Shown: in pieces, positions 1 through 23,080 of the stretch
How positions within the stretch are numbered: the first letter of the stretch is position 1
How the letters are laid out: every line of letters begins with the position of its first letter
Source: an uncultured Oscillochloris sp.
GTDB taxonomy: Bacteria > Chloroflexota > Chloroflexia > Chloroflexales > Chloroflexaceae
Assembly: GCA_903920315.1 (NCBI GenBank)
Contig: CAIXLU010000328.1
Span: 1 to 33,700, forward strand
Length of the DNA: 33,700 nt
Reading direction: 5' to 3'
Notes under the pieces: model-generated
Database searches by the model: none
Told to the model about the DNA's origin: nothing
Seen by the model: the letters and a program-made list of their open reading frames with translations, nothing else
Position numbers and translations under genes: made by a program

Positions 1-130
1 GGAAATTTTTAAGTATCCCGGCGTCACATGTCATGCTGAGCGCAGCGAAGCATCTTTCCCGGCTTCCTGCAAGACCCTTCGCTTCGCTCAGGGTGACATG
101 GTGTTCGCGATGGGACGATTAAAAACTTCC
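1..130. repeat. Nested palindromic intergenic repeat (MITE/REP-like)
   Basis: Two nested inverted repeats are visible. The inner arms, 27-55 and 72-100, match at 24 of 29 positions and carry the core CTGAGCG(C/A)AGCGAAG. The outer arms, 1-12 and 119-130, match at 11 of 12 positions (GGAA(A/G)TTTTTAA). The element could therefore fold into one long hairpin of about 130 nt. It may extend left of the window. No gene is seen before the ATG at 163. It looks like a dispersed non-coding palindrome; whether it is mobile is not shown by this window. Confidence 0.6.
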
Positions 131-162
131 ACGTCCCTTACCCTATCTCACCGAGGCATAGT

Positions 163-774
163 ATGAGCATTGAAACACCCAGCCTGCCCGAGATCGTCAC
201 TCGCTCGCTTGATGCAACCTGGAGCTACCCGCGCTGGTCTCACCTGCCCGACGATGGCAACCGCTACGAGGTGATTGACGGAGTATTGTATATGACCACC
301 GCGCCGAGCTACTTCCACCAGTGGATTATTCGCCAGATGGTACGTGCGCTGCTCATCCAGATTGATGATGTTGGCATCGGACTGACCGCCTGGTCGCCCA
401 TTGGCCTGCTGATGCCGGGTTGTGACCCGGTGCAGCCCGATATTGTGGTGGTGCGAAGCGAGGATCGTGGCATCATCTACGACCGGCGGATCAATGGCGT
501 ACCGGCACTGATTGTGGAAGTTCTGTCGCCCTCGAACGCGGAAAAGGACACCGAGATCAAGCGCGGAGCCTACGCACGGGCGGGCCTGCCCGAATACTGG
601 ATTGTGCGCCCCGCCGAGCGGGACGTGATCGTGTTGAGCCAACCCGACCCGGCCAGCGGGCTGTTCCTCCATTCGGTCACTATTCCGCCAGACGGCAGAC
701 TGCACGCAGCAACCCTGCCGTTTCAGGCTGAAATCGCCAACTTCTTCGCCGGGTCGCCGGATGAGACGCTGTAG
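163..774 (+). CDS. Uma2 family PD-(D/E)xK nuclease-fold protein (copy 1)
   Basis: A 203-residue protein of the Uma2 (DUF820) family, a restriction-endonuclease-like fold that is abundant in Cyanobacteria and Chloroflexota. The pattern expected for a PD-(D/E)xK active site is present: QPDIVV with Asp93, LIVEVLSPS with Glu119 and EIKR with Lys133, followed by the family signature AGLPEYWIV. The N-terminal LPDDGNRYEVIDG stretch is also typical. GAGG lies 7 nt before the ATG, so this start is preferred. It is followed 13 nt later by a paralogue, so the two are probably co-transcribed. Uma2 function is poorly established; roles as orphan nucleases or in mobile elements have been suggested. The family call is firm, the biological role is not. 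Confidence 0.88.
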   Translation: MSIETPSLPEIVTRSLDATWSYPRWSHLPDDGNRYEVIDGVLYMTTAPSYFHQWIIRQMVRALLIQIDDVGIGLTAWSPIGLLMPGCDPVQPDIVVVRSEDRGIIYDRRINGVPALIVEVLSPSNAEKDTEIKRGAYARAGLPEYWIVRPAERDVIVLSQPDPASGLFLHSVTIPPDGRLHAATLPFQAEIANFFAGSPDETL

Positions 775-9640: not shown

Positions 9641-11014
9641 ATGATCGCTGATGCGAGCGCCCCTCAGTTTGATGCATCATCTCGCCGTCGGATTTTGACC
9701 GTTCTCTTCGTGGGAGTATTTATGGCGGCTCTGGATGCTGCCATTATTGCCCCAGCCATCCCGGCCCTGCGCGCCGCCTTCGGCGTTGATAACAGTCAGA
9801 TCGGCCTTGTGACAATTGTCTTCGGCCTGTGTTCACTGAGCAGCACGGCCCTGATGGCTAATCTGAGCGACCGCTACGGGCACCGACCGATCTATCTGAT
9901 CAACGTCAGCGGGTTCGCTCTCGGCTCACTGCTGATCGCCCTCTCGCCAAACTTCGGCATGGTGCTGGTGGGTCGGGCCATCCAGGGCATCAGCGCGGGC
10001 GGGATCACGCCCACAGCCAGCGCGGTCGTTGGTGACGCATTCCCGCCAGCCGAACGCGGCAAGATCCTCGGACTGATCGGGGCCACTTTCGGTATGGCCT
10101 TCCTGATCGGCCCGGTGGTGGCCTCCCTGATGCTGATCGTCCTGAGTTGGCAGTGGATCTTTCTGATCAACCTGCCCATCGCCGTAGTTATCCTGGTGAT
10201 GGGTGCGCGGGTTCTGCCGGTCTCCGCTCCCATCACCAACCAGCCGCCCTTCGATTATGCAGGGATCGCGGTGGTGACGGTGATGCTCACCAGTCTGATG
10301 ATGGGGATCAACCGAGTCCTCGACAGCGCTCTGAGCATGACCATCTGGCCGGGGCTGCTGGGATTGTCCGCCTTGTGCGTCCCGCTGCTGATCTGGATCG
10401 AGGGGCGGGCGGCTCAGCCGATTGTGCCGCTCAACCTGTTTGGGACACGTCAACTCGTAACGACCTACATCCTCTGCGTGGGAGCAGGCTTTGGCATGGG
10501 CAGCGTCATGTTTATCTCCTCCGTGGCAGTGGCCGCGTTTAACACACCCTCGAAGCAGGCGGGCCTGCTGCTGCTCCCGATGGTCGTCTGCTCGTCGGCA
10601 GCCTCAATGGGTTTTGGCCGGATCCAAAACCGGATGGGCGCACGGGCGGTGATGCTCTGGGGCTTTGGGACGCTGGTGGCTGGCTCTGCGCTGCTGGGGC
10701 TGGAGGCGGCGCATTTCTGGCTCTATATGCTCTCTACCCTGCTGATTGGCGCGGGCGTAGGGATTGTCGTGGGCGGTACGTTACGCACGGTTGTGCTGGA
10801 TGAGGTGCAATCCCACGAGCGCGGCGTGGCCCAGGGTCTGGTGAATATCGGCATCGCGATGGGCAACCTGCTGGTGGTGGCCATTCTCAGCGCCCTGGCC
10901 GACCAAGCCGGCGGCGGGCTGTCTGGCCTGAGCGTGGCCTATCTGGCCGCCGCCGGGGTGATGGTGGTCATGATGGTGACGAGTTTTGGGCTGCGCCCAC
11001 GTCGGCGGGATTAG
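9641..11014 (+). CDS. Major facilitator superfamily drug/metabolite exporter (EmrB/QacA-like)
   Basis: A 457-residue polytopic MFS transporter. The first helix carries AALDAAIIAPAIPAL, typical of drug:H+ antiporters. The loop between helices 2 and 3 has the motif-A-like LSDRYGHRP. The stretch VGRAIQGISAGGITPTASAV and GATFGMAFLIGPVVAS (motif C, shared by exporters) follow. About 12 to 14 hydrophobic helices are visible. The substrate cannot be told. The ATG at 9641 has only AGGA 11 nt away, so the start is moderately sure. It has no nearby regulator gene, and its 3' end overlaps the convergent DUF4349 gene by 4 nt. Confidence 0.88.
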   Translation: MIADASAPQFDASSRRRILTVLFVGVFMAALDAAIIAPAIPALRAAFGVDNSQIGLVTIVFGLCSLSSTALMANLSDRYGHRPIYLINVSGFALGSLLIALSPNFGMVLVGRAIQGISAGGITPTASAVVGDAFPPAERGKILGLIGATFGMAFLIGPVVASLMLIVLSWQWIFLINLPIAVVILVMGARVLPVSAPITNQPPFDYAGIAVVTVMLTSLMMGINRVLDSALSMTIWPGLLGLSALCVPLLIWIEGRAAQPIVPLNLFGTRQLVTTYILCVGAGFGMGSVMFISSVAVAAFNTPSKQAGLLLLPMVVCSSAASMGFGRIQNRMGARAVMLWGFGTLVAGSALLGLEAAHFWLYMLSTLLIGAGVGIVVGGTLRTVVLDEVQSHERGVAQGLVNIGIAMGNLLVVAILSALADQAGGGLSGLSVAYLAAAGVMVVMMVTSFGLRPRRRD

Positions 11015-11910
11015 ACGGCGGGCGGGGCTTTGCGCCCACCACGGGCGCGGCGACGCCAGCCCCAGCGGATCAGCAACCCCAGCGGCAGCCACACCGGTAT
11101 CCACACAAACAGGATGATGCCAAGCTCGATCAGACCCTGCCCGAACCCGATCAGGGAGCCGATGGAACTGCTCACAACCCGCATCGGCTGCCATCCCGAC
11201 TCCGGAATGATTGCCGGGGTCGGTGGTACCGGCTGCAGATCAGCCGTAATCGTGGCCATGGCGGCGCTATCCTTGAGGTACTTCATACGCCCTTGGATCT
11301 GCTCGATCTGGCCCTGGACATCGGTAAGAGCGGAGTTCACCTGTAGGGCGTCCTCAACCTTGTCGGCCTTGGCAAGCAGGGCCAGCAACCGGTCGCGGGT
11401 GGCTCCCAGGTTACGCATGCGCGAGTCGAGATCAACAAACTCGGCGGTGACATCATCGCCACCGACGCTGCGCGAGAGGACTCTGCGCGCCAGACCCTCG
11501 ACATCGGAGAGGGCGGAACCAAACGAGTCGGAGGGCACGCGAAAGGTGATCGTAGAGGTTTGTGAGTCACCGCTACCGTTCGTCTGCACGCTTACCACAT
11601 AGCCGCCGAGCTGATCAACGCGGGCGCGGATGCTGGCCTCGGCGTCGGAGACACGCTCAACCTGAAGCGTGACCGTGGCGGTCTTGATCACCATACGCTG
11701 AGCAGTCTGGCTCGCGGTGTCGCTCTGCGCGCTACCACCGGAGGCGGAGGATGAACTCTCCAGCGCGGCGGGTGCCCCTGGGGACGCAGGGGCAGACCTC
11801 TCCATCTGCGGGGAAGGCATGGGCACAGGTGCCGACGATCCCGCACTCGCACATGCAGTCAGCATCAGGGCGGCGAACAAGGTTGCGGTAAGAATCTTGA
11901 GTGTTTGCAT
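11011..11910 (-). CDS. DUF4349 domain lipoprotein
   Basis: A 299-residue envelope protein. It has a lipoprotein signal ending in LTAC with the lipidated Cys20, then a Ser/Ala/Pro-rich linker, then the DUF4349 core beginning RMVIKTATVTLQVERVSDAE. The core contains a helical, probably coiled-coil part (DSRMRNLGATRDRLLALL). A C-terminal membrane helix follows (about 262-284), ending in a basic tail. DUF4349 proteins are found in many bacteria; their role is not established. The frame begins at 11940, but GGAG 6 nt before the ATG at 11910 fixes the start. Having both a lipid anchor and a C-terminal helix is common for this family. Confidence 0.88.
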   Translation of the reverse strand: MQTLKILTATLFAALMLTACASAGSSAPVPMPSPQMERSAPASPGAPAALESSSSASGGSAQSDTASQTAQRMVIKTATVTLQVERVSDAEASIRARVDQLGGYVVSVQTNGSGDSQTSTITFRVPSDSFGSALSDVEGLARRVLSRSVGGDDVTAEFVDLDSRMRNLGATRDRLLALLAKADKVEDALQVNSALTDVQGQIEQIQGRMKYLKDSAAMATITADLQPVPPTPAIIPESGWQPMRVVSSSIGSLIGFGQGLIELGIILFVWIPVWLPLGLLIRWGWRRRARGGRKAPPAV

Positions 11911-12214
11911 CGTCTTCTCCAGGGGATTGCGCTCATACATTTAGGGCTGATGCAAAGTCCTGCCGCTGTATCGCCGTGGGGCTAAAGCCAATACTTTTCA
12001 GATAAGCCGTCAGATGCCGACCACGAATAGGTCACGAATACGCGAATAAGGCTCTGCACCGGGCTATTCGTATATTCGCGTCCTCTTCGTGGTCGGCGCG
12101 GCATGGCCTTATTCGAAAAGTATTGGGACTAAAGCCCTCGGCTCTCGACGGCCTTCGTAGATCTCGCCGGACGACCAGGTGCCTGAAGATTTTGCACGAG
12201 CTCTTCCCATGACG
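11911..12214. other. Spacer with inverted-repeat element
   Basis: This 304-bp spacer between two minus-strand lipoprotein genes is mostly taken up by the long inverted repeat at 11989-12126. No ORF with a plausible ribosome-binding site is seen. No clear promoter for the DUF4349 gene could be placed. Confidence 0.5.
11989..12126. repeat. Long inverted-repeat element (MITE-like)
   Basis: The terminal 12 nt are a perfect inverted repeat (CCAATACTTTTC, 11989-12000 against 12115-12126). Complementarity continues inward with small gaps through CCGACCACGAA (left near 12016, right near 12085-12095) and through CACGAATACGCGAATA-type sequence, so the whole 138 bp can fold into one long stem. CTAAAGCC occurs as a direct repeat on both sides (11983-11990 and 12129-12136), though not exactly abutting the ends on the right. 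The element has no coding capacity. Confidence 0.75.
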
Positions 12215-13814: not shown

Positions 13815-15884
13815 CTACGCATGTCCTCGCTCGCCCAGGGGCAGGCTGACCGTGAAGCGGCTCCCTTGCCCTGGCGTACTGGTGACATCCACGCGCCCGC
13901 CGTGGGCCTCCGCCAACCGCCGCACCAGCACCAGCCCCAGGCCCGTACCTTCGTACGACCGGCTCAGTCGGCTGTCGAGTTGGGTGAACGGCTGAAAGAG
14001 CCGTCCCAGATCCGCCTCGGTGATGCCGATGCCAGTGTCCCAGACCACAAACTGGATACGCTCCTGCTCCGCATCCGTCGTCACATCGAGGCCAACCGCC
14101 CCGCCTGACGGCGTGAATGTGATCGCGTTGGTAAGCAGGTTGGTGAGGATCTGGATCAATCGGCGCTCGTCGGCACACAGCTCTGCGTTGCCGTGCTCCT
14201 GGCGGTAATGCAGGTGAACGTCCTTCTGTTGCGCGGCGGTCTGCACGATCTGGAATGCCAATGCGCAGATGCTGTCCACATCAACTGGCTGACGATCCAT
14301 ATGCGCCTGGTCGGCCCCAATGCGGGCCAGGTCGAGGATGTCGGAGAGGATCGCGAGCAGGTGTTTCCCACTCTCTCGCACCGTGGCGAGCGCGTGGCGC
14401 TGCGGCGCGCTGACCGGCCCGTAGTCGCCCTCGTCAAGGCATTCGCCGATCCCCAGGATACCGTTGAGCGGGGTGCACAACTCGTGGCTTATCATAGCCA
14501 GAAACTCATCCTTGACCCGCAGCGCACGGGTCAATTCGGCATTCGTGCGGCTCAGTGCATCGGCCTGGGCCTGCACGACATCCTCCGCACGCTTGCGCGA
14601 GGTGATGTCCTGTCCGGTGATGACCCCCAGCACCAGCGTGCCATCGGCAACAGACACCGAACCCCCGCTGAACGAAAACCAGCGCACATCGTCTGCGTCG
14701 CGCCCCCGCAGACTCAGTTCCAGATCGCGGAACCGCTCGCCGCGCAATACGCGCGCAATGGGAGTCTGTGTGGACGGCACGGACAACCCATCAGAACCGC
14801 AGAGTGTGAGCGAGGAGTCCCGCACCATATCCCGAATCGTCGCATGGGCAACCGGCGAATGGATCCGCAGATGCTCGTGGGCGGCGCGGTTGATCGCCGT
14901 GATCCTGCCGTCCGATGTGAGAACCGCCACCCCCACATCCAGTGTCTGCAAAATGGCCTCGCGCTGCTGATATTCGGCGTCGCGTGCCTGCTCAGCCTGC
15001 CGCTGCGCAGTGACGTCCATAACGATAGTTCCGACGCCGAGCAACGTGCCATCGGCGGCGTGTACCGGGAAGTAGCTGATGTGCCAGATGTGAAACACAC
15101 CGGGACCCGCCAGGGTCTTCCCGCAGATCTCGCTGTTGAGGATCGACTCGCTGGTCGTCATCACATGAAGGAAGGGGGGCTCCACCACTGACGCCAATGC
15201 GGGCATCACCTCGCGGACGGTGCGGCCCAGGTGCGCCTCCGGCGCCATCCTGTTTATGGCGGCGAGTGTGGCGTTAATGTGCTGGTAGCGCAGTTCCGTA
15301 TCCAGCAAGGCGATGCCAATCGGTGCGTGCGCGAGCAAGCTGTCGAGGCGGGCCGCGTGTTCGATGGCGCGGCGCGTGTGGGCCTCGATCTGGGCGGAGG
15401 CGGTACGCAGCGCGGCCTCGGCGTGTACCCGTGCGGTGACATCACGATGAATGCCAACGTAGCGAATGATCGTACCCTGGTTGTCGGTGATCTGATGCAC
15501 CGACGACTCGATCACCACCTCATGCCCGTCGCGGGTGCGATGGAACGCCTCGCCACGCCAGGAGCCAGTGGTCATAAGAGTGTTCAGCACAGACACGCCG
15601 CTCTCACCACTGACGTAGCGCACGACCGTGATCACCTCGGTGATTGGTCGCCCCATCGCCTCCGCACGCGACCAGCCGTAGATCTGCTCGACGGCCCGGT
15701 TCCAGTGGACGATCTGGTACCGCTCATCCGTGACAAAGATCGCATCGCTTACGACATCAAGCCAGATCGGGGGGGCGGATGAGATGTCGATTGCGGCTGC
15801 ACGCTCCAGTGCGGCGATACGGGCACGCAGGCGCTGATTCTCGGCGTGGAGTTGCTCAATGGTTTTGGACGAAGAGGTGTTCAT
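13815..15884 (-). CDS. Cytosolic multi-PAS sensor histidine kinase
   Basis: A 689-residue sensor kinase without membrane helices. It begins with a short coiled coil (8-31), then three PAS domains (about 40-160, 185-300 and 308-440), a HisKA dimerisation domain and an HATPase_c domain (about 570-685). The H-box reads SHELCTPLN with the phospho-accepting His467; the usual Arg after EL is replaced by Cys470. The N-box (LTNLLTNAITF), G1 (DTGIGI), F-box (LFQPF) and G2 (GTGLGL) look intact. No receiver domain or response regulator gene is adjacent, so the partner is elsewhere. No clear SD precedes the ATG at 15884. The lipoprotein gene downstream is probably co-transcribed. Confidence 0.92.
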   Translation of the reverse strand: MNTSSSKTIEQLHAENQRLRARIAALERAAAIDISSAPPIWLDVVSDAIFVTDERYQIVHWNRAVEQIYGWSRAEAMGRPITEVITVVRYVSGESGVSVLNTLMTTGSWRGEAFHRTRDGHEVVIESSVHQITDNQGTIIRYVGIHRDVTARVHAEAALRTASAQIEAHTRRAIEHAARLDSLLAHAPIGIALLDTELRYQHINATLAAINRMAPEAHLGRTVREVMPALASVVEPPFLHVMTTSESILNSEICGKTLAGPGVFHIWHISYFPVHAADGTLLGVGTIVMDVTAQRQAEQARDAEYQQREAILQTLDVGVAVLTSDGRITAINRAAHEHLRIHSPVAHATIRDMVRDSSLTLCGSDGLSVPSTQTPIARVLRGERFRDLELSLRGRDADDVRWFSFSGGSVSVADGTLVLGVITGQDITSRKRAEDVVQAQADALSRTNAELTRALRVKDEFLAMISHELCTPLNGILGIGECLDEGDYGPVSAPQRHALATVRESGKHLLAILSDILDLARIGADQAHMDRQPVDVDSICALAFQIVQTAAQQKDVHLHYRQEHGNAELCADERRLIQILTNLLTNAITFTPSGGAVGLDVTTDAEQERIQFVVWDTGIGITEADLGRLFQPFTQLDSRLSRSYEGTGLGLVLVRRLAEAHGGRVDVTSTPGQGSRFTVSLPLGERGHA

Positions 15885-16248
15885 TGGCGTTTGTCAATAC
15901 CTTCGCCACAACTAACCGTGAAGTCGCGGTCACAGAGCTTGGACGTATACATCCGCTCTCCGCTGAACTATCACCCGGATAATTAAGGAAAAATATGTGG
16001 GTAGTATGTGTGCATTGTACCATCCAATAGTGTGGAATAAATCACACCTCAACCGCTTGCTCGACCGATTGGCCTATGCGGCCCACGAGCGCAGGGTGAT
16101 CGGCGATGGCGAGCAGGGAGATGATCTGCCGAGTACGGTGACGATCCAGACACGCTCCCCTTTCCCGCGATCAAGAGTAGGCAACAAGCCATGCTATACT
16201 CAGCGAAGTGTTCTGCAGTAGTACTCCCCCTCATTGAGGAGCTGGGTT
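15885..16248. other. Divergent intergenic region
   Basis: This 364-bp region separates the sensor kinase from the AAR-like gene. A TATACT hexamer (16195-16200, +) could be the -10 of the AAR-like gene but has no good -35 partner. A stretch at about 16055-16175 reads like old coding sequence on the minus strand, with no start codon and no recognisable family. Nothing else can be supported. Confidence 0.4.
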
Positions 16249-18315
16249 ATGAAGCGCGTTGTCAGCATTAGCCTGGGCTCGTCAGCCCGCGACTATCGGT
16301 TTACCACGACCATCCTTGGTCAGCACATCGAGATTCAGCGCATCGGCACCAACGGCGACATCGCCTGGGCGGGCAAGCTTATTCACGAGTATGACGGCAC
16401 GGTGGACGCGATCAGTCTGGGCGGGCTAACGCCGGTGTTTCGGGTGGGCGCGGCACGCTACCCGCACCAGGAGGCCATTCATATCGCCAGCAAGGCTCAG
16501 CATACGCCGGTGGTAGACGGTGGCGTGCTGAAGAAGACACTTGAGCGTTGGGCGGTGGCCCAGGCCGCCCGCAAAATGCCCGACCTCTTCCGTTATAAGC
16601 GAATCTTGCTCACCAGCGGAATCGAGCGCTACCAGTTGGCCGCCGCTCTGGCCCAGCACGACGCCAAGTTACGCTTTGCCGACCCAATTATCCATAGCGG
16701 GCTGCGGTTCCTGGCACCGCCGCGTAGTCTGGCTCAGCTTGAGCTGTATGCCGCTACTACCCTGCCGATCACTGCCCTGCTGCCTTATCGCCTGCTCCAC
16801 CCCGTTGCCCTCGGTCAAGAGGGGCACGATCCGCGTGCGGAAAAGCATTTCAACTGGGCCCATGTGATCGCCGGCGATTTCGCCTTTATCCGCCGCTTTG
16901 CCCCCGAGAACCTCGCGGGTAAGGTGATTTTTACCGACGACCCGTCGCCTGAGGAGATTGAGGATCTGCGCCGCCGTGGGGTGACAACCCTGATAACCAT
17001 GCATCCGCCTCTGGTCAGCGCCGATGGCAGCCCCTGCCCACGACCCTTTGTGTCAACCGATATGCTGGAGGCCATCGTCGTCGCGATCCAGGAGACGAAC
17101 AGCCAGCCCGGTGAGGCCGAGGCTCTCGATTTTATCGCCGCTGCCAACTGGGGGCCGACGGTGCAGGATCTCAACCCGCGCCCCAAGCCCAAGTTCGCCT
17201 TTGTGATCCACCCGCTGCGCACTAGTATGATCGCCAAAGATGCCCGCTTCCGCTGGACACGCTACGTGCCGCAGCGTCTGGTGGAGGTGGTGGCCGCACA
17301 GTTTCCGCCGCTCTACCTCTCAAAGATCCGTGGCATCCGCTCTACCGCCACGGGCGAGGAGACCGAGGGTATCTTGCTGACGCTGGGGGCTACTCCACGT
17401 GAGATGATGCGCCATCCGCCGTCCTTCACCTACCGCCGTCTGATCAAGGCAGCGCACATCGCCGAGCGTAAGGGCGCACGGCTGATGGGCCTGGGTGCCT
17501 TCACCTCGGTGGTTGGCGATGCCGGGATCACCGTGGCGCAAAAGGTAGATATTGGCATCACGTCGGGGAATTCGTTGACGGTGGCGGCTACTCTGGAAGC
17601 AGCCAAGCAGGCGGTGATGCTGATGAAGGGCGGTCGCCCCGAACATGTCCGCGCCGTGGTGATTGGGGCCACCGGATCGATTGGCGCGGTCTGTGCGCGT
17701 CTGCTGGCCCAGGCCGTACGCGATGTCGTGCTGATCGCGCCCCGCGCCGAGCGTCTGCTGGCCCTCAAGAAGCAGATCGAGCAGGAAACCCCCGGCGCAC
17801 GGGTGATCGCCGCAACTCACCCCGATGCCTATATCGGCGACGCCGACCTGATTATCACCACCACCAGCGCCCTTACCGGCAAAGTGATCAATGTAGATAA
17901 GCTCAAACCCGGCGCAGTGGTCTGCGATGTAGCCCGACCGCCCGATGTGAAGAAGGCGGACGCGGCCCGCCGCCCCGATGTGCTGATCGTGGAGAGCGGC
18001 GAGATCATGCTACCGGGCGAACCCGACTTCGGCTTCGATATTGATATGCCCCCCGGCACCGCCTACGCCTGTCTCTCGGAGACGGCCCTGCTGGCGATGG
18101 ATGGCAAGTATGGCGACTACACTCTGGGCCGTACCATTGAGATGGAACGTGTTAAGGAGATGTACCGGCTCTGGCAGAAGCACGGCTTGAAGCTGGCCGG
18201 GCTGCGTTCCTTCGGGGTCTACGTCACCGATGAGATGATTGCCGAAAAGCGTCGTCTGGCCGACGAGCGACGGAAGAAGCTGGGCCTGCCGACCGAACAC
18301 CCCCTTGTGAAGTAA
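16249..18315 (+). CDS. Large NAD(P)-binding protein with C-terminal acyl-ACP-reductase-like domain
   Basis: A 688-residue protein. The C-terminal 310 residues line up, from memory of the family, with cyanobacterial long-chain acyl-ACP reductase (AAR). Shared points are GLGAFTSVV, the Rossmann motif GATGSIG (473-479), YACLSETALL with Cys608 at the place of the AAR catalytic cysteine, and the ending LGRTIEMERV...HGLKLAGL. AAR reduces fatty acyl-ACP to aldehyde. The N-terminal 340 residues are not part of AAR and are not recognised; automatic annotation may call the whole a shikimate/quinate dehydrogenase. A TTG at 16234 is in frame, but the ATG at 16249 has AGGAG 7 nt ahead. No signal peptide or membrane helix is seen. 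No aldehyde decarbonylase gene is adjacent. Confidence 0.72.
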   Translation: MKRVVSISLGSSARDYRFTTTILGQHIEIQRIGTNGDIAWAGKLIHEYDGTVDAISLGGLTPVFRVGAARYPHQEAIHIASKAQHTPVVDGGVLKKTLERWAVAQAARKMPDLFRYKRILLTSGIERYQLAAALAQHDAKLRFADPIIHSGLRFLAPPRSLAQLELYAATTLPITALLPYRLLHPVALGQEGHDPRAEKHFNWAHVIAGDFAFIRRFAPENLAGKVIFTDDPSPEEIEDLRRRGVTTLITMHPPLVSADGSPCPRPFVSTDMLEAIVVAIQETNSQPGEAEALDFIAAANWGPTVQDLNPRPKPKFAFVIHPLRTSMIAKDARFRWTRYVPQRLVEVVAAQFPPLYLSKIRGIRSTATGEETEGILLTLGATPREMMRHPPSFTYRRLIKAAHIAERKGARLMGLGAFTSVVGDAGITVAQKVDIGITSGNSLTVAATLEAAKQAVMLMKGGRPEHVRAVVIGATGSIGAVCARLLAQAVRDVVLIAPRAERLLALKKQIEQETPGARVIAATHPDAYIGDADLIITTTSALTGKVINVDKLKPGAVVCDVARPPDVKKADAARRPDVLIVESGEIMLPGEPDFGFDIDMPPGTAYACLSETALLAMDGKYGDYTLGRTIEMERVKEMYRLWQKHGLKLAGLRSFGVYVTDEMIAEKRRLADERRKKLGLPTEHPLVK

Positions 18316-18408: not shown

Positions 18409-18427
18409 TAATTTGGATATATCTGGG

Positions 18428-19195
18428 ATGATTCAGCTAGAACACATTATCGCTCGTCCATCTCGCCGACTTCACCGCGCCCCGTTGCTGCTGATCCACG
18501 GAGCTTGGCACGGGGCGTGGTGCTGGGAGCAGGCGATGGCTGGCTTTGCGGCGCACGGGTTTGAGGCCCACGCCGTGAGCATACGCGGCCACGGGGACAG
18601 CCCGCGCCCACCCGGCTACGCCCGCAGCACAATTGTCCAGTACGCCAGCGATGTCTGCTCCGCCATTGCCGCCGTCGGGTCGCGTCCGGTGGTGGTGGGC
18701 CATAGCCTGGGCGGTTTGCTCGTCCAGCTCCTGATCACGGGAGCCGTCGGCCCCACGCCCGCCATTGCCGGGGCCGTACTTCTGTGCAGCTCGCCGGTCA
18801 GTATGCGCGCCTACTTTACCCGCGACCCCGCCGCCGAGCCGATCTCCCTGCCCGCCATGCTCCGGCTTGAGCCACAGGCCATGCGTGCGGCCCTCTTTCG
18901 CCACGATATTGACGAGGCGGATCTGGCCCGCCATGTGGCGCGTATGGTGTCTGAGCCGCCCCTGGTGACGCCCAGCAGTATGCTGCTGCGCCCGCGCCCC
19001 TCCGCGTGCCGCACCCCGCTGCTGGCCATCGCCGCCGAGCGCGACTCGGTGTACGGCCCAGATGCCCAGCGGGCCACCGCCGCTGCCTACGGCTGTGATC
19101 TGCTGATGGTTCCCAACGCGACCCACGACCTGATGCTTGACCCGGCATGGCCCATCGCTGCCGAAGCGATTGAACACTTTGCGGCACGCCTGTAA
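18428..19195 (+). CDS. Alpha/beta hydrolase
   Basis: A 255-residue alpha/beta-hydrolase fold protein. The oxyanion-hole motif HGAWHGAW begins at His24, the nucleophile elbow GHSLGG has Ser93, and a likely acid Asp206 (AERDSVY) and base His233 (NATHDLML) complete the catalytic triad. This HGAW type includes esterases and methylesterase-like enzymes; the substrate is unknown. No signal peptide is seen. The ATG at 18428 has no clear SD; a TTG 15 nt upstream is in frame and is the alternative. It follows the AAR-like gene on the same strand after 112 nt, and a strong hairpin lies 20 nt beyond its stop. A joint role in lipid metabolism is possible but unproven. Confidence 0.87.
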   Translation: MIQLEHIIARPSRRLHRAPLLLIHGAWHGAWCWEQAMAGFAAHGFEAHAVSIRGHGDSPRPPGYARSTIVQYASDVCSAIAAVGSRPVVVGHSLGGLLVQLLITGAVGPTPAIAGAVLLCSSPVSMRAYFTRDPAAEPISLPAMLRLEPQAMRAALFRHDIDEADLARHVARMVSEPPLVTPSSMLLRPRPSACRTPLLAIAAERDSVYGPDAQRATAAAYGCDLLMVPNATHDLMLDPAWPIAAEAIEHFAARL

Positions 19196-19585: not shown

Positions 19586-22500
19586 ATGCATACAGTTCCT
19601 CACCCAAAGTACCGCCTCAGCCAGTTTCTTTCGGATCCATTGGTCTGGCTGTTCGTTGGTTTCATGGTTGGGCTGGCGCTGCTCACCTTCACGCTCTCCT
19701 GGAATGATCAGAGCCGGCAACTGGATGTGCGCCTCGTGGCTAAAGTCCGTGGCTGGAATGTCTGGGTTCACGTTTTGGTTGAGATGCTAGCGGCGGTGAT
19801 CTTTCTCGTGCGTCTTTACACACGCCGATGCGCTGAAGAGATACTGCGCCAGAGCGAGGCTCATTATCGTCTGATCTCCGAGAATGCCGCCGATGTGATC
19901 TGGGTTCTTGATCTCGAATCTCAGAGCTTCACATATGTCAGCCCATCAGTGCAAAAGTTGCGTGGCTATACCCCGCACGAGGCGATGCAGCAGACAATGG
20001 ATCAGACTCTCACACCCGCCTCGCTCACCAAAGTTCGGACGCTACTGGTCGAGCGACCACCAGCCATCGGACTGCCACCGCACACCGATGAACTGGAGCA
20101 GATCTGCAAGGATGGCAGCATCGTCACTACCGAAGTGACGACCAACTATGTACTGAACGACGCGGGCAAGATACAGGTGGTCGGCGTCTCGCGTGACATC
20201 ACCGTACGCAAACAGGCGGAGGTGCGCCTGAATAACCTCAACCGCACCTATGCCTTACTCAGCGCAATCAACCAGATGATTGTGCGCGTGCGTGAACCCG
20301 ATAAGCTGTTTGAGGAGGCGTGCCGGATCGCTGTTTCCCAGGGTGGGTTTCGCATGGCATGGATTGGGTTGCTCGACCCGCAGACTAAACTGGTGGTTCC
20401 GGTGGCTCATGCGGGTGAGGTGGGTACGTACACTGCCATCGCCCTGCTCACAGGTCAGTATGTCGTGGTGAATGATATTGCCACCGACCCGCGTATGGCC
20501 CCGTGGCGAACCGACGTCCTGCGCTTGGGCTACCGCTCGGCAGCCTTTCTTCCGTTCATCGTCGCAGGCGAACTGCGGGGAACACTCAACCTCTACGCAT
20601 CCGAACCTCATTTTTTCGACGAGGATGATCTCAAGCTGTTTACCGAAATGGCGATGGATATCGCCTTTGCAATCGAGTTCATTGAGCAAGAGCAGCAGCG
20701 CCAGCAGGCGGAGGCGCAGGTTCTCCAGCTCTCCCGTGTTATTGAGCAGACGGACGATTTGGTGATTATTACCAACGTGTCGGGGATCATTGGGTACGTC
20801 AATCCATCCTTTGAGCGTCGGGTTGGCTATACCAGCGCCGAGGCGATCGGCCAGACGCCACGAATCCTCAAGTCGGGATTAGAGAAACCAGAACTCTATA
20901 CCGCCGTGTGGGCCACAATCCTGCGCGGCGAATCGTACCAGAGCGAGATCCGCAATCGTAAGAAAAATGGCGACATCTATTATGAATCGAAGACAATTTC
21001 TCCTATCCGCGACAAACATGGCGTCATCACCCATTTTGTCTCCACCGGCAAGGATATTACCGCCTACAAACAGGCTGAGGCCGCGCTGAAAGAGAGTGAG
21101 GTGCGCTACCAGGTGATCTTCGAGGGAGCGAACGAAGGTATCCTCGCCGCACGTATCGCGGATCGCTCATTTCAGTACGTCAATCCGACCCTCTGTGCCA
21201 TGTTCGGCTACACTCGCGATGAGTTCCTGCGGCTTGGCATTAATGATATGTATCCGAACGAAGCCCAGCCCAGGGTGTTTGCCGAGTTTCAGGCGATGGT
21301 GCGCGGTGAAAAGGCGATCGTCTCCAATATCCGCTGTCGCCGTAAGGATGGAAGCATTTTTTATGCTGACATCAAAGCGTCGCGAACGCGCATGGATGGC
21401 CAGGAATTTATGATCAGCTTTATCAGCGATGTCACTGAGCGCCAACGTGCAGAGGAGTCGCTGATCGAGGAGCGTAATTTACTGGCCCGCCGAGTAGACG
21501 AACGCACCGCCGATCTGAGCCGTGTCAACACCAACCTGACGCGAGCGATACGTGCCAAGGATGAGTTTCTGGCCAACATGAGCCACGAGTTGCGCACGCC
21601 GCTCAACGCGATCTTGGCCTTTAGCGAGAGCCTGCTGGAGCAGATTCGTGGCCCGCTCAACGAGCGCCAGCAGGCGTCGTTGCGCAACATCGAAACCAGT
21701 GGTCGCCATCTGCTTGCGCTGATCAACGACGTCCTCGACATCGCGAAGGTCGAGTCCGGGCGGATGGAGTTACAGCGCGAAATCTTTTCGATTGCCGATG
21801 TCTGCGAGTTCAGCCTCTTATTTGTCAAGGAGCTGGCACTCAAAAAGCAACTCCGGCAAGAGTTCCATCTGCAGGATCGGCAAGCCAAGGTGTATGCCGA
21901 CCCCAAGCGCCTGAAGCAGATGCTGGTGAACCTGCTGAGCAACGCGGTTAAGTTCACGGAGAAAGGCGGACGAATCAGCTTTGAGGTCACCACCGATGCT
22001 GAGGAGGGTGTCGTCCGCTTTACCGTCGAGGACACCGGTATCGGTATGTCGTCGGAGGGCATAGCTCGCCTGTTTCAGCCCTTTATCCAGCTCGACTCGA
22101 GCCTGAGTCGCCAGCACGATGGCACCGGGCTGGGGCTAGCCCTCGTGCGCCGTCTGGCAGAACTGCACGGCGGCAGTATTTCAGTGGAAAGCGAACCGGG
22201 CAAAGGCAGCCGCTTTACCATCGCTCTGCCCTACCCCCCGCCGAAGGAGGCGGAACTCCTCCCGTTGGCCTTCCCACGTGTGGGGAGCAACCCGCTCCAC
22301 TCAGCAGTTATCATCGAGGACTCAGAGACGGTGGGGGAGCAACTCGCACGCTACCTCCAGGAGTTAGACATTCGCGCCATTATCTATCCCGAAGGCGAGG
22401 GTGCCCTAGAGTACGTGGCTACATTCCACCCCGATGTGATCTTCCTTGATTTGCAGATCCCGGGCCAGTCGGGGTGGGACGTGTTGGCGCGTCTCAAAGC

Positions 22501-23080
22501 TGAACCACACCTACAGGACGTTCCCGTGATCATTATTTCTGCAGTGGATGATCGCGCACGGGGGCTGGATGCTGGCGCGGCTGAGTATGTGGTCAAGCCC
22601 ATCTCCCGCGAGACACTCCGGCATGCGCTGAGGATCGTCGTCGCTGAGTCGGACGTTGCCTGTGAGGCGCTGATCATCGCTTCACAGATCACACCCCCTC
22701 CCACCACTGTACGCATCTTGCTAGTTGAGGATAACGAGGTCAATATCATCGCTATCAACGATTACTTGCTCGATCGCGGCTACCATATGGTCGTTGCCCG
22801 CAATGGCCGCGAGGCTCTCGACATGGTTGCAGAGGCTCGTCCAGATGTGATTTTGATGGACATTCAGATGCCCGAGATGGATGGCCTAGAGGCGACCCGT
22901 CGCTTGCGGGACATTCCCGACTATAAGACGACGCCGATCATCGCACTGACCGCCCTGGCCATGCCCGGCGACCGCGAGCGGTGTATTGCTGCCGGTGCAA
23001 CCGAATACCTAACCAAGCCTGTCAGTCTGAAGGGGCTAGTAGACACGATTCAGCGATTGCTGAGACCCGGCCATGCGTAA
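19586..23080 (+). CDS. Membrane hybrid histidine kinase with PAS, GAF and two receiver domains
   Basis: An 1164-residue hybrid sensor kinase. Two membrane helices (about 18-38 and 57-79) enclose a very short outer loop, so the sensing is probably intracellular. Then come PAS (about 90-212), GAF (230-370), PAS (375-500), PAS (505-628), a coiled coil, HisKA with SHELRTPLN and His667, HATPase_c with DTGIGM and GTGLGL, and two receiver domains with phosphorylatable Asp955 (IFLDLQ) and Asp1092 (ILMDIQMPEMDG). Both receivers keep the acidic pocket (IIEDSE, LVEDNE) and the conserved Lys (VVKP, LTKP). No output domain or Hpt domain is fused, so a separate Hpt protein is expected. No strong SD precedes the ATG. 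It is monocistronic as far as can be seen. Confidence 0.95.
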   Translation: MHTVPHPKYRLSQFLSDPLVWLFVGFMVGLALLTFTLSWNDQSRQLDVRLVAKVRGWNVWVHVLVEMLAAVIFLVRLYTRRCAEEILRQSEAHYRLISENAADVIWVLDLESQSFTYVSPSVQKLRGYTPHEAMQQTMDQTLTPASLTKVRTLLVERPPAIGLPPHTDELEQICKDGSIVTTEVTTNYVLNDAGKIQVVGVSRDITVRKQAEVRLNNLNRTYALLSAINQMIVRVREPDKLFEEACRIAVSQGGFRMAWIGLLDPQTKLVVPVAHAGEVGTYTAIALLTGQYVVVNDIATDPRMAPWRTDVLRLGYRSAAFLPFIVAGELRGTLNLYASEPHFFDEDDLKLFTEMAMDIAFAIEFIEQEQQRQQAEAQVLQLSRVIEQTDDLVIITNVSGIIGYVNPSFERRVGYTSAEAIGQTPRILKSGLEKPELYTAVWATILRGESYQSEIRNRKKNGDIYYESKTISPIRDKHGVITHFVSTGKDITAYKQAEAALKESEVRYQVIFEGANEGILAARIADRSFQYVNPTLCAMFGYTRDEFLRLGINDMYPNEAQPRVFAEFQAMVRGEKAIVSNIRCRRKDGSIFYADIKASRTRMDGQEFMISFISDVTERQRAEESLIEERNLLARRVDERTADLSRVNTNLTRAIRAKDEFLANMSHELRTPLNAILAFSESLLEQIRGPLNERQQASLRNIETSGRHLLALINDVLDIAKVESGRMELQREIFSIADVCEFSLLFVKELALKKQLRQEFHLQDRQAKVYADPKRLKQMLVNLLSNAVKFTEKGGRISFEVTTDAEEGVVRFTVEDTGIGMSSEGIARLFQPFIQLDSSLSRQHDGTGLGLALVRRLAELHGGSISVESEPGKGSRFTIALPYPPPKEAELLPLAFPRVGSNPLHSAVIIEDSETVGEQLARYLQELDIRAIIYPEGEGALEYVATFHPDVIFLDLQIPGQSGWDVLARLKAEPHLQDVPVIIISAVDDRARGLDAGAAEYVVKPISRETLRHALRIVVAESDVACEALIIASQITPPPTTVRILLVEDNEVNIIAINDYLLDRGYHMVVARNGREALDMVAEARPDVILMDIQMPEMDGLEATRRLRDIPDYKTTPIIALTALAMPGDRERCIAAGATEYLTKPVSLKGLVDTIQRLLRPGHA

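Follow-up and report, generated by a model that had tools for sequence, protein, structure and literature searches.

An acyl-ACP-reductase-like domain and a putative companion of related predicted fold, joined in one protein of an uncultured Oscillochloris sp.

Introduction

Cyanobacterial acyl-ACP reductase (AAR; family model TIGR04058, PDB 6JZQ, 6JZU and 6JZY) is about 340 residues long, and the two-domain, alcohol-forming fatty acyl reductase of Marinobacter belongs to a different reductase family of the SDR type. In AAR, Cys294 takes the acyl group and NADPH reduces the thioester; the same residue is found in PigE and TamH, whose reductase domains act on carrier thioesters (PMC8341465, PMC9594044). 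PigE (prodigiosin) and TamH (tambjamine) are fusion proteins in which the partner is a class III aminotransferase. A further reductase domain, the carmabin 'TAD' (PDB 9E4S and 9E4U, the entry titles of which name an active cysteine and an NADH complex), is part of an amino acid adenylation (NRPS) protein.

Here we describe a 688-residue protein encoded in a 33,700-nucleotide stretch of DNA from an uncultured Oscillochloris sp. (hereafter the window). Its C-terminal half resembles AAR in its fold, its Gly-rich loop and its catalytic cysteine, shares the same cysteine and loop with PigE and TamH, and resembles the carmabin domain in fold. Unlike AAR, however, the protein is fused to an additional N-terminal domain, and unlike PigE and TamH, this partner is not an aminotransferase but is predicted to have an AAR-like fold that lacks the motifs of the reductases. 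We know of no such partner of the carmabin domain.

Results

The fused gene and its surroundings

The reading frame begins with ATG, at the same Met where its relatives begin, and the features discussed below are as follows.

16236..16241, + strand: Shine-Dalgarno-like GAGGAG 5' of the ATG, from the sequence
16249..18315, + strand: fused protein of 688 residues (N domain and AAR-like C domain), stop included
16249..17184, + strand: N domain, residues 1-312, predicted divergent AAR-like fold (AlphaFold2 and fold search)
16615..16632, + strand: SGIERY, residues 123-128, conserved loop of the form S/C-[AG]-[IV]-[DE]-R-[FY]
17188..18312, + strand: C domain, residues 314-688, AAR/PigE thioester-reductase-like in sequence and fold
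17560..17580, + strand: TSGNSLT, residues 438-444, T-x-G-N-x-x-T motif of the C family
17665..17685, + strand: GATGSIG, residues 473-479, dinucleotide loop, of the GA/S-x-G-x-x-G type in 35/35 relatives
18070..18072, + strand: Cys608, predicted acyl-thioester nucleophile, aligned with the AAR active-site Cys
18413..19195, + strand: alpha/beta hydrolase of 260 residues (PF12697, E 4e-26), 97 nt downstream of the fused frame

Cysteines occur at residues 263, 482, 559 and 608. Full-length orthologues were found in most of 60 related genomes (~61-94% identity), and the N half is 93% identical to the nearest named record, 'uncultured Oscillochloris sp.'. The preliminary description of this DNA had noted GATGSIG and Cys608 in a protein about twice as long as AAR; the length was judged rightly, and both features were confirmed in the ORF and are kept in all 35 relatives. 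Because many genomes of the set are draft or metagenome assemblies, the absences reported below are weak evidence.

Relatives of the alpha/beta hydrolase lie near the fusion gene at 17 of 33 loci, and in Chloroflexus such a relative abuts or overlaps the stop of the fusion gene; the hydrolase of the window is 50% identical to this Chloroflexus neighbour. By sequence, the large ORFs flanking the locus (13815-15884 on the minus strand and 19586-23080 on the plus strand) resemble (hybrid) histidine kinases of the PAS type, and a DUF4349 protein (E 9e-54) is encoded at 11014-11940 on the minus strand. In the Herpetosiphonaceae assembly KatS3mg057 (L048, L076), the fused gene is split into several frames, reflecting either assembly errors or a pseudogene.

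The C-terminal half

A search with the single sequence of the C half matched PigE with E 1e-27 (PDB 4PPM) and AAR with E 3e-10, and a profile of its relatives gave 7e-49 and 7e-30, respectively; with these values the likeness cannot be attributed to chance. The nearest family model is that of PigE (NF053554), which scored 182.7 bits over residues 361-675 and did not reach its cut-off of 850 bits, while the AAR equivalog TIGR04058 scored 56 bits, far under its cut-off of 449.7. The Pfam search detected no class III aminotransferase (PF00202) in the 688-residue protein. By these family models, the protein belongs neither to the AARs proper nor to the PigE family.

In the AlphaFold2 model of the full-length protein (pLDDT 89.6, pTM 0.79), the C half matched AAR 6JZQ with Z 34.8 (22% identity over 326 residues) and the carmabin reductase domain with Z 34.4, and the next unrelated fold followed only at Z 14.4, that is, 20 Z units below AAR. 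Cys608 pairs with the active-site Cys of the solved AARs in pairwise alignment and is invariant in 35/35 diverse relatives; the T, G, N and T of the T-x-G-N-x-x-T motif are likewise invariant in the alignment of C-family relatives. Fold, motif and cysteine together give good support to the prediction that the C half has AAR-like chemistry. The earlier view of this half as acyl-ACP-reductase-like, with Cys608 corresponding to the AAR nucleophile, therefore stands with the aligned cysteine, the fold and the kept motif behind it, and the unrelated dehydrogenase family that had been named as its refutation did not appear, AAR being so far ahead in the fold search.

The N-terminal half

The N half alone gave nothing significant against Pfam, NCBIfam or PDB sequences. 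When 84,980 genomes were scanned with an alignment of the domain, 123 relatives were obtained and 80 were kept, including those of Moorella, Pelosinus, Orenia, Natroniella, Caldanaerobacter, Armatimonadota and Wallbacteria. In Firmicutes, Armatimonadota and other phyla, the domain occurs as a separate gene. These standalone proteins are homologous to the N half over all 300 residues (~34-42% identity) and differ from it in that they are encoded separately, usually directly upstream of a C gene. In databases they often carry the name 'quinate 5-dehydrogenase', and we know of no experimental function for them.

The AlphaFold2 model of the N half, built on 65 sequences, was of high confidence (pLDDT 93.3, pTM 0.90). 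Its best solved match was again AAR, with Z 14.1, 10% identity and an rmsd of 4.6 over 249 residues (3..307 on 1..341), a weaker match than that of the C half. AAR or the AAR-like carmabin domain accounted for each of the nine best solved matches (Z 11.9-14.1), followed by glutamate dehydrogenase at Z 10.4, and Foldseek placed AAR at the top for this model too. A Gly-rich motif was found in 0/65 relatives and a conserved Cys also in 0/65, and there was no conserved His; the conserved polar residues of the domain are Ser, Arg, Asp, Lys, Thr and Glu. From the order of the secondary-structure elements (DSSP), the SGIERY loop probably lies at the place of the Rossmann Gly-rich loop. A profile comparison of the two halves (hhalign) returned a probability of 0.4%, and no likeness in sequence was found.

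On the predicted structure, the N half would be best called a divergent AAR-like fold without known redox parts, and the folds make a common descent of the N and C halves likely. The preliminary description had called the N-terminal half unknown, which is right in that it belongs to no Pfam or NCBIfam family; its fold, however, is no longer unknown, and the structure model it had suggested as a check, which we ran on residues 1-312, predicts a second, divergent AAR-like fold, without an NAD(P)-loop motif or a conserved Cys. The second activity or substrate-delivery role proposed there for this half may each apply. The N domain is a protein family without a model that spans several phyla and is conserved enough to matter, and its pairing with an AAR-like reductase gives the family a testable partner.

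Partnership of the N and C domains

At 30 loci, the N gene lies directly upstream of the C gene, usually in the order dusB, (HTH gene), N, C, greA, lysS. The two are separate adjacent genes in Firmicutes and Armatimonadota and one ORF in Chloroflexales and Wallbacteria. In both the N and the C tree, one branch is enough to set the fused sequences apart, as expected of one fusion event; in the N tree this split holds only when the tree is unrooted, the midpoint root falling inside the fused group. The pairwise distances in the N and C trees are correlated (r = 0.78, 0/1000 permutations). In Chloroflexota, in a comparison across 251 genomes, 41 of the 43 genomes with N also have C (p 4e-38, a value uncorrected for kinship and inflated by it), and in one family (f10) the two genes lie far apart yet co-occur.

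The partnership is not strict, because two genomes (G019 and G029) carry a C half that is not joined to N, and in a few genomes with N the C matches are only weak. The N domain was not found in G019. A C-only version of 432 residues sits inside the fused clade (L037 and L047, at G019:C56:83912-84988 and G029:C50:9345-10415), and this one genus seems to have lost the N domain. In five N genomes (those behind L079, L080, L081, L098 and L125), the C domain is found in a longer ORF of ~670-870 residues; for two of these (L178, L180), and for L131 from a Chloroflexota genome without N, the Pfam search confirmed a class III aminotransferase ahead of the C domain.

A second copy and wax ester synthesis

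Chloroflexales have a second copy of the fused gene, ~50% identical, which has a hydrophobic C-terminal stretch. WS/DGAT (PF03007) was detected in 18 of 61 genomes; the paralogue is present in all 18, and four genomes have the paralogue without WS/DGAT (p 6e-12, not corrected for phylogeny, so that kinship inflates it). In eight genomes (G009, G016, G024, G027, G031, G033, G034 and G036), the paralogue lies directly upstream of WS/DGAT on the same strand, the identity of WS/DGAT being confirmed on the whole ORF for two of the eight neighbours. Given this link, the paralogue is a candidate enzyme for the step that yields the aldehyde or the alcohol for wax esters of the Roseiflexus type, which are used as biomarkers of hot-spring mats.

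The gene in the window is the other copy. Its genome yielded neither the hydrophobic-tail paralogue nor a WS/DGAT match, and WS/DGAT was found in 0/6 searched genomes of its genus. The proposal that the protein makes fatty aldehydes for wax esters is therefore favoured by gene order for the paralogue in the eight genomes, but not for the gene of the window. It had also been noted that no decarbonylase is nearby, which is correct and extends further: PF11266 was found in 0/37 Chloroflexales genomes, with a positive Synechococcus control.

WS/DGAT is also absent from the complete genomes of g9, a genus that is probably Chloroflexus to judge from the named records, although Chloroflexus has been reported to make wax esters (PMC4400912), and another synthase may thus exist. 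That the alpha/beta hydrolase beside the window gene takes part in wax ester synthesis is speculation. LuxC (PF05893) was detected in a different family of the order but not in the searched Oscillochloris and Chloroflexus-type genomes, and we rejected it as an explanation of the window for that reason. A search of the open-access literature returned no paper on AAR in Chloroflexus or on an acyl-CoA reductase with Roseiflexus wax esters.

Discussion

The reading we prefer, and consider fairly probable, is that of a two-part reductase: a Cys-dependent, aldehyde-giving domain with an AAR-fold companion, an old pair that was fused and then duplicated. By analogy with AAR and PigE, we infer that Cys608 of the C half would accept the acyl group of a phosphopantetheine carrier, either acyl-ACP or acyl-CoA, and that the resulting enzyme thioester would be reduced to the aldehyde by NAD(P)H bound in the GATGSIG loop. 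The N half would be an ancient partner of related fold, formerly a separate gene, without an NAD(P)-loop motif or conserved Cys, and its most likely role is that of a companion without redox activity, which would bind the reductase and deal with either the carrier or the aldehyde. The cross-phylum gene pair would have been fused, probably once, in the lineage of Chloroflexales and Wallbacteria, and the fused gene duplicated later in Chloroflexales, where the hydrophobic-tail copy may serve wax ester synthesis and the window copy may supply aldehyde to another sink, possibly with the neighbouring alpha/beta hydrolase. Several points count against this reading: the polar conservation of the N domain seems to exceed the needs of a passive scaffold; the relation between the two halves rests on predicted structure, with no sequence likeness in the profile comparison; N and C do not always go together; and in one family of Chloroflexota the N gene lies away from C, beside an NTP-transferase-like and a PAP2 gene.

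The same polar conservation, together with the two-lobed AAR-like fold, could instead point to the N half as a second reductase, one converting the aldehyde to the alcohol, so that the whole would be a four-electron alcohol-forming reductase of the Marinobacter two-domain type. The Marinobacter enzyme is about as long, also has two domains and, as far as the paralogue is concerned, shares the context of wax ester synthesis; fatty alcohol is what a wax ester synthase requires, and the gene of such a synthase directly follows the paralogue. However, a dinucleotide motif is found in none of the 65 N domains, and the N domain is kept in genomes where a class III aminotransferase is joined to C or encoded close to it, an enzyme that requires the aldehyde rather than the alcohol. 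The cut-off of the Marinobacter-type model (NF005539 as a stand-in) was reached in 0/61 genomes, implying that the protein is not of that family; the matches mostly look like ordinary short-chain dehydrogenases, and NF005539 was not among the 25 best models for the 688-residue protein. We consider an alcohol-forming enzyme of this kind quite unlikely. Unlikely as well, but deserving somewhat more credit, is the possibility that the substrate of the C half, like that of PigE, is a thioester other than a fatty one (short-chain, amino- or peptidyl-), and that the lipid reading is wrong for the window gene: the PigE model outscores that of AAR (182.7 against 56 bits), relatives are fused to class III aminotransferases, and the genome of the window has neither a WS/DGAT match nor a decarbonylase. 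On the other hand, the ~50% identical paralogue is linked to a wax ester synthase, and AAR, which has the same fold, acts on long-chain thioesters.

Two further assignments deserve hardly any credence. PF01488 slightly exceeds its gathering score at residues 465-570 (25.8 vs 24.3) and would point to a shikimate/quinate dehydrogenase, but this match covers the Rossmann part only, the full models fall far short (NF001312, 24.4 vs 295; NF009201, 22.4 vs 235), and the fold search favours AAR by 20 Z units. An AAR of the cyanobacterial type, feeding alkane synthesis, would account for the common fold and cysteine, yet it is hard to reconcile with a score so far beneath the family cut-off and with a decarbonylase missing from all 37 genomes searched, and is just as improbable.

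Beyond the two-part reductase itself, we tentatively raise a broader possibility, which we regard as rather doubtful at present: an AAR-type reductase and an AAR-fold partner whose redox function was lost may form a two-component system, widespread but not yet described, in which the partner delivers the acyl carrier or takes the aldehyde and the reductase works only, or best, together with it. Such a system would be encoded beside dusB-greA-lysS in many Firmicutes, fused in Chloroflexales and Wallbacteria, and recruited there to wax ester synthesis.

Some occurrences of the two domains depart from these arrangements. Aminotransferase-reductase fusions in a TamH-like order are found in Chloroflexota and in unclassified genomes or Firmicutes (L131:3018-5564; L178:4867-7416 and L180:42-2627, both on the minus strand), and these are not among the organisms that we know to produce prodiginines or tambjamines. 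Standalone C genes occur in a row with DUF4388, small GTPase-like, alpha/beta hydrolase, hexapeptide-repeat, response-regulator and GAF genes (L133, L136, L145, L147, L149). Away from C, standalone N genes in one family of Chloroflexota form a conserved row with genes for a MobA-like NTP-transferase and a PAP2 phosphatase (L111, L116, L135, L137, L138, L139, L144, L146, L148), which suggests a role of the N domain beyond the reductase, linked to nucleotides or phospholipids.
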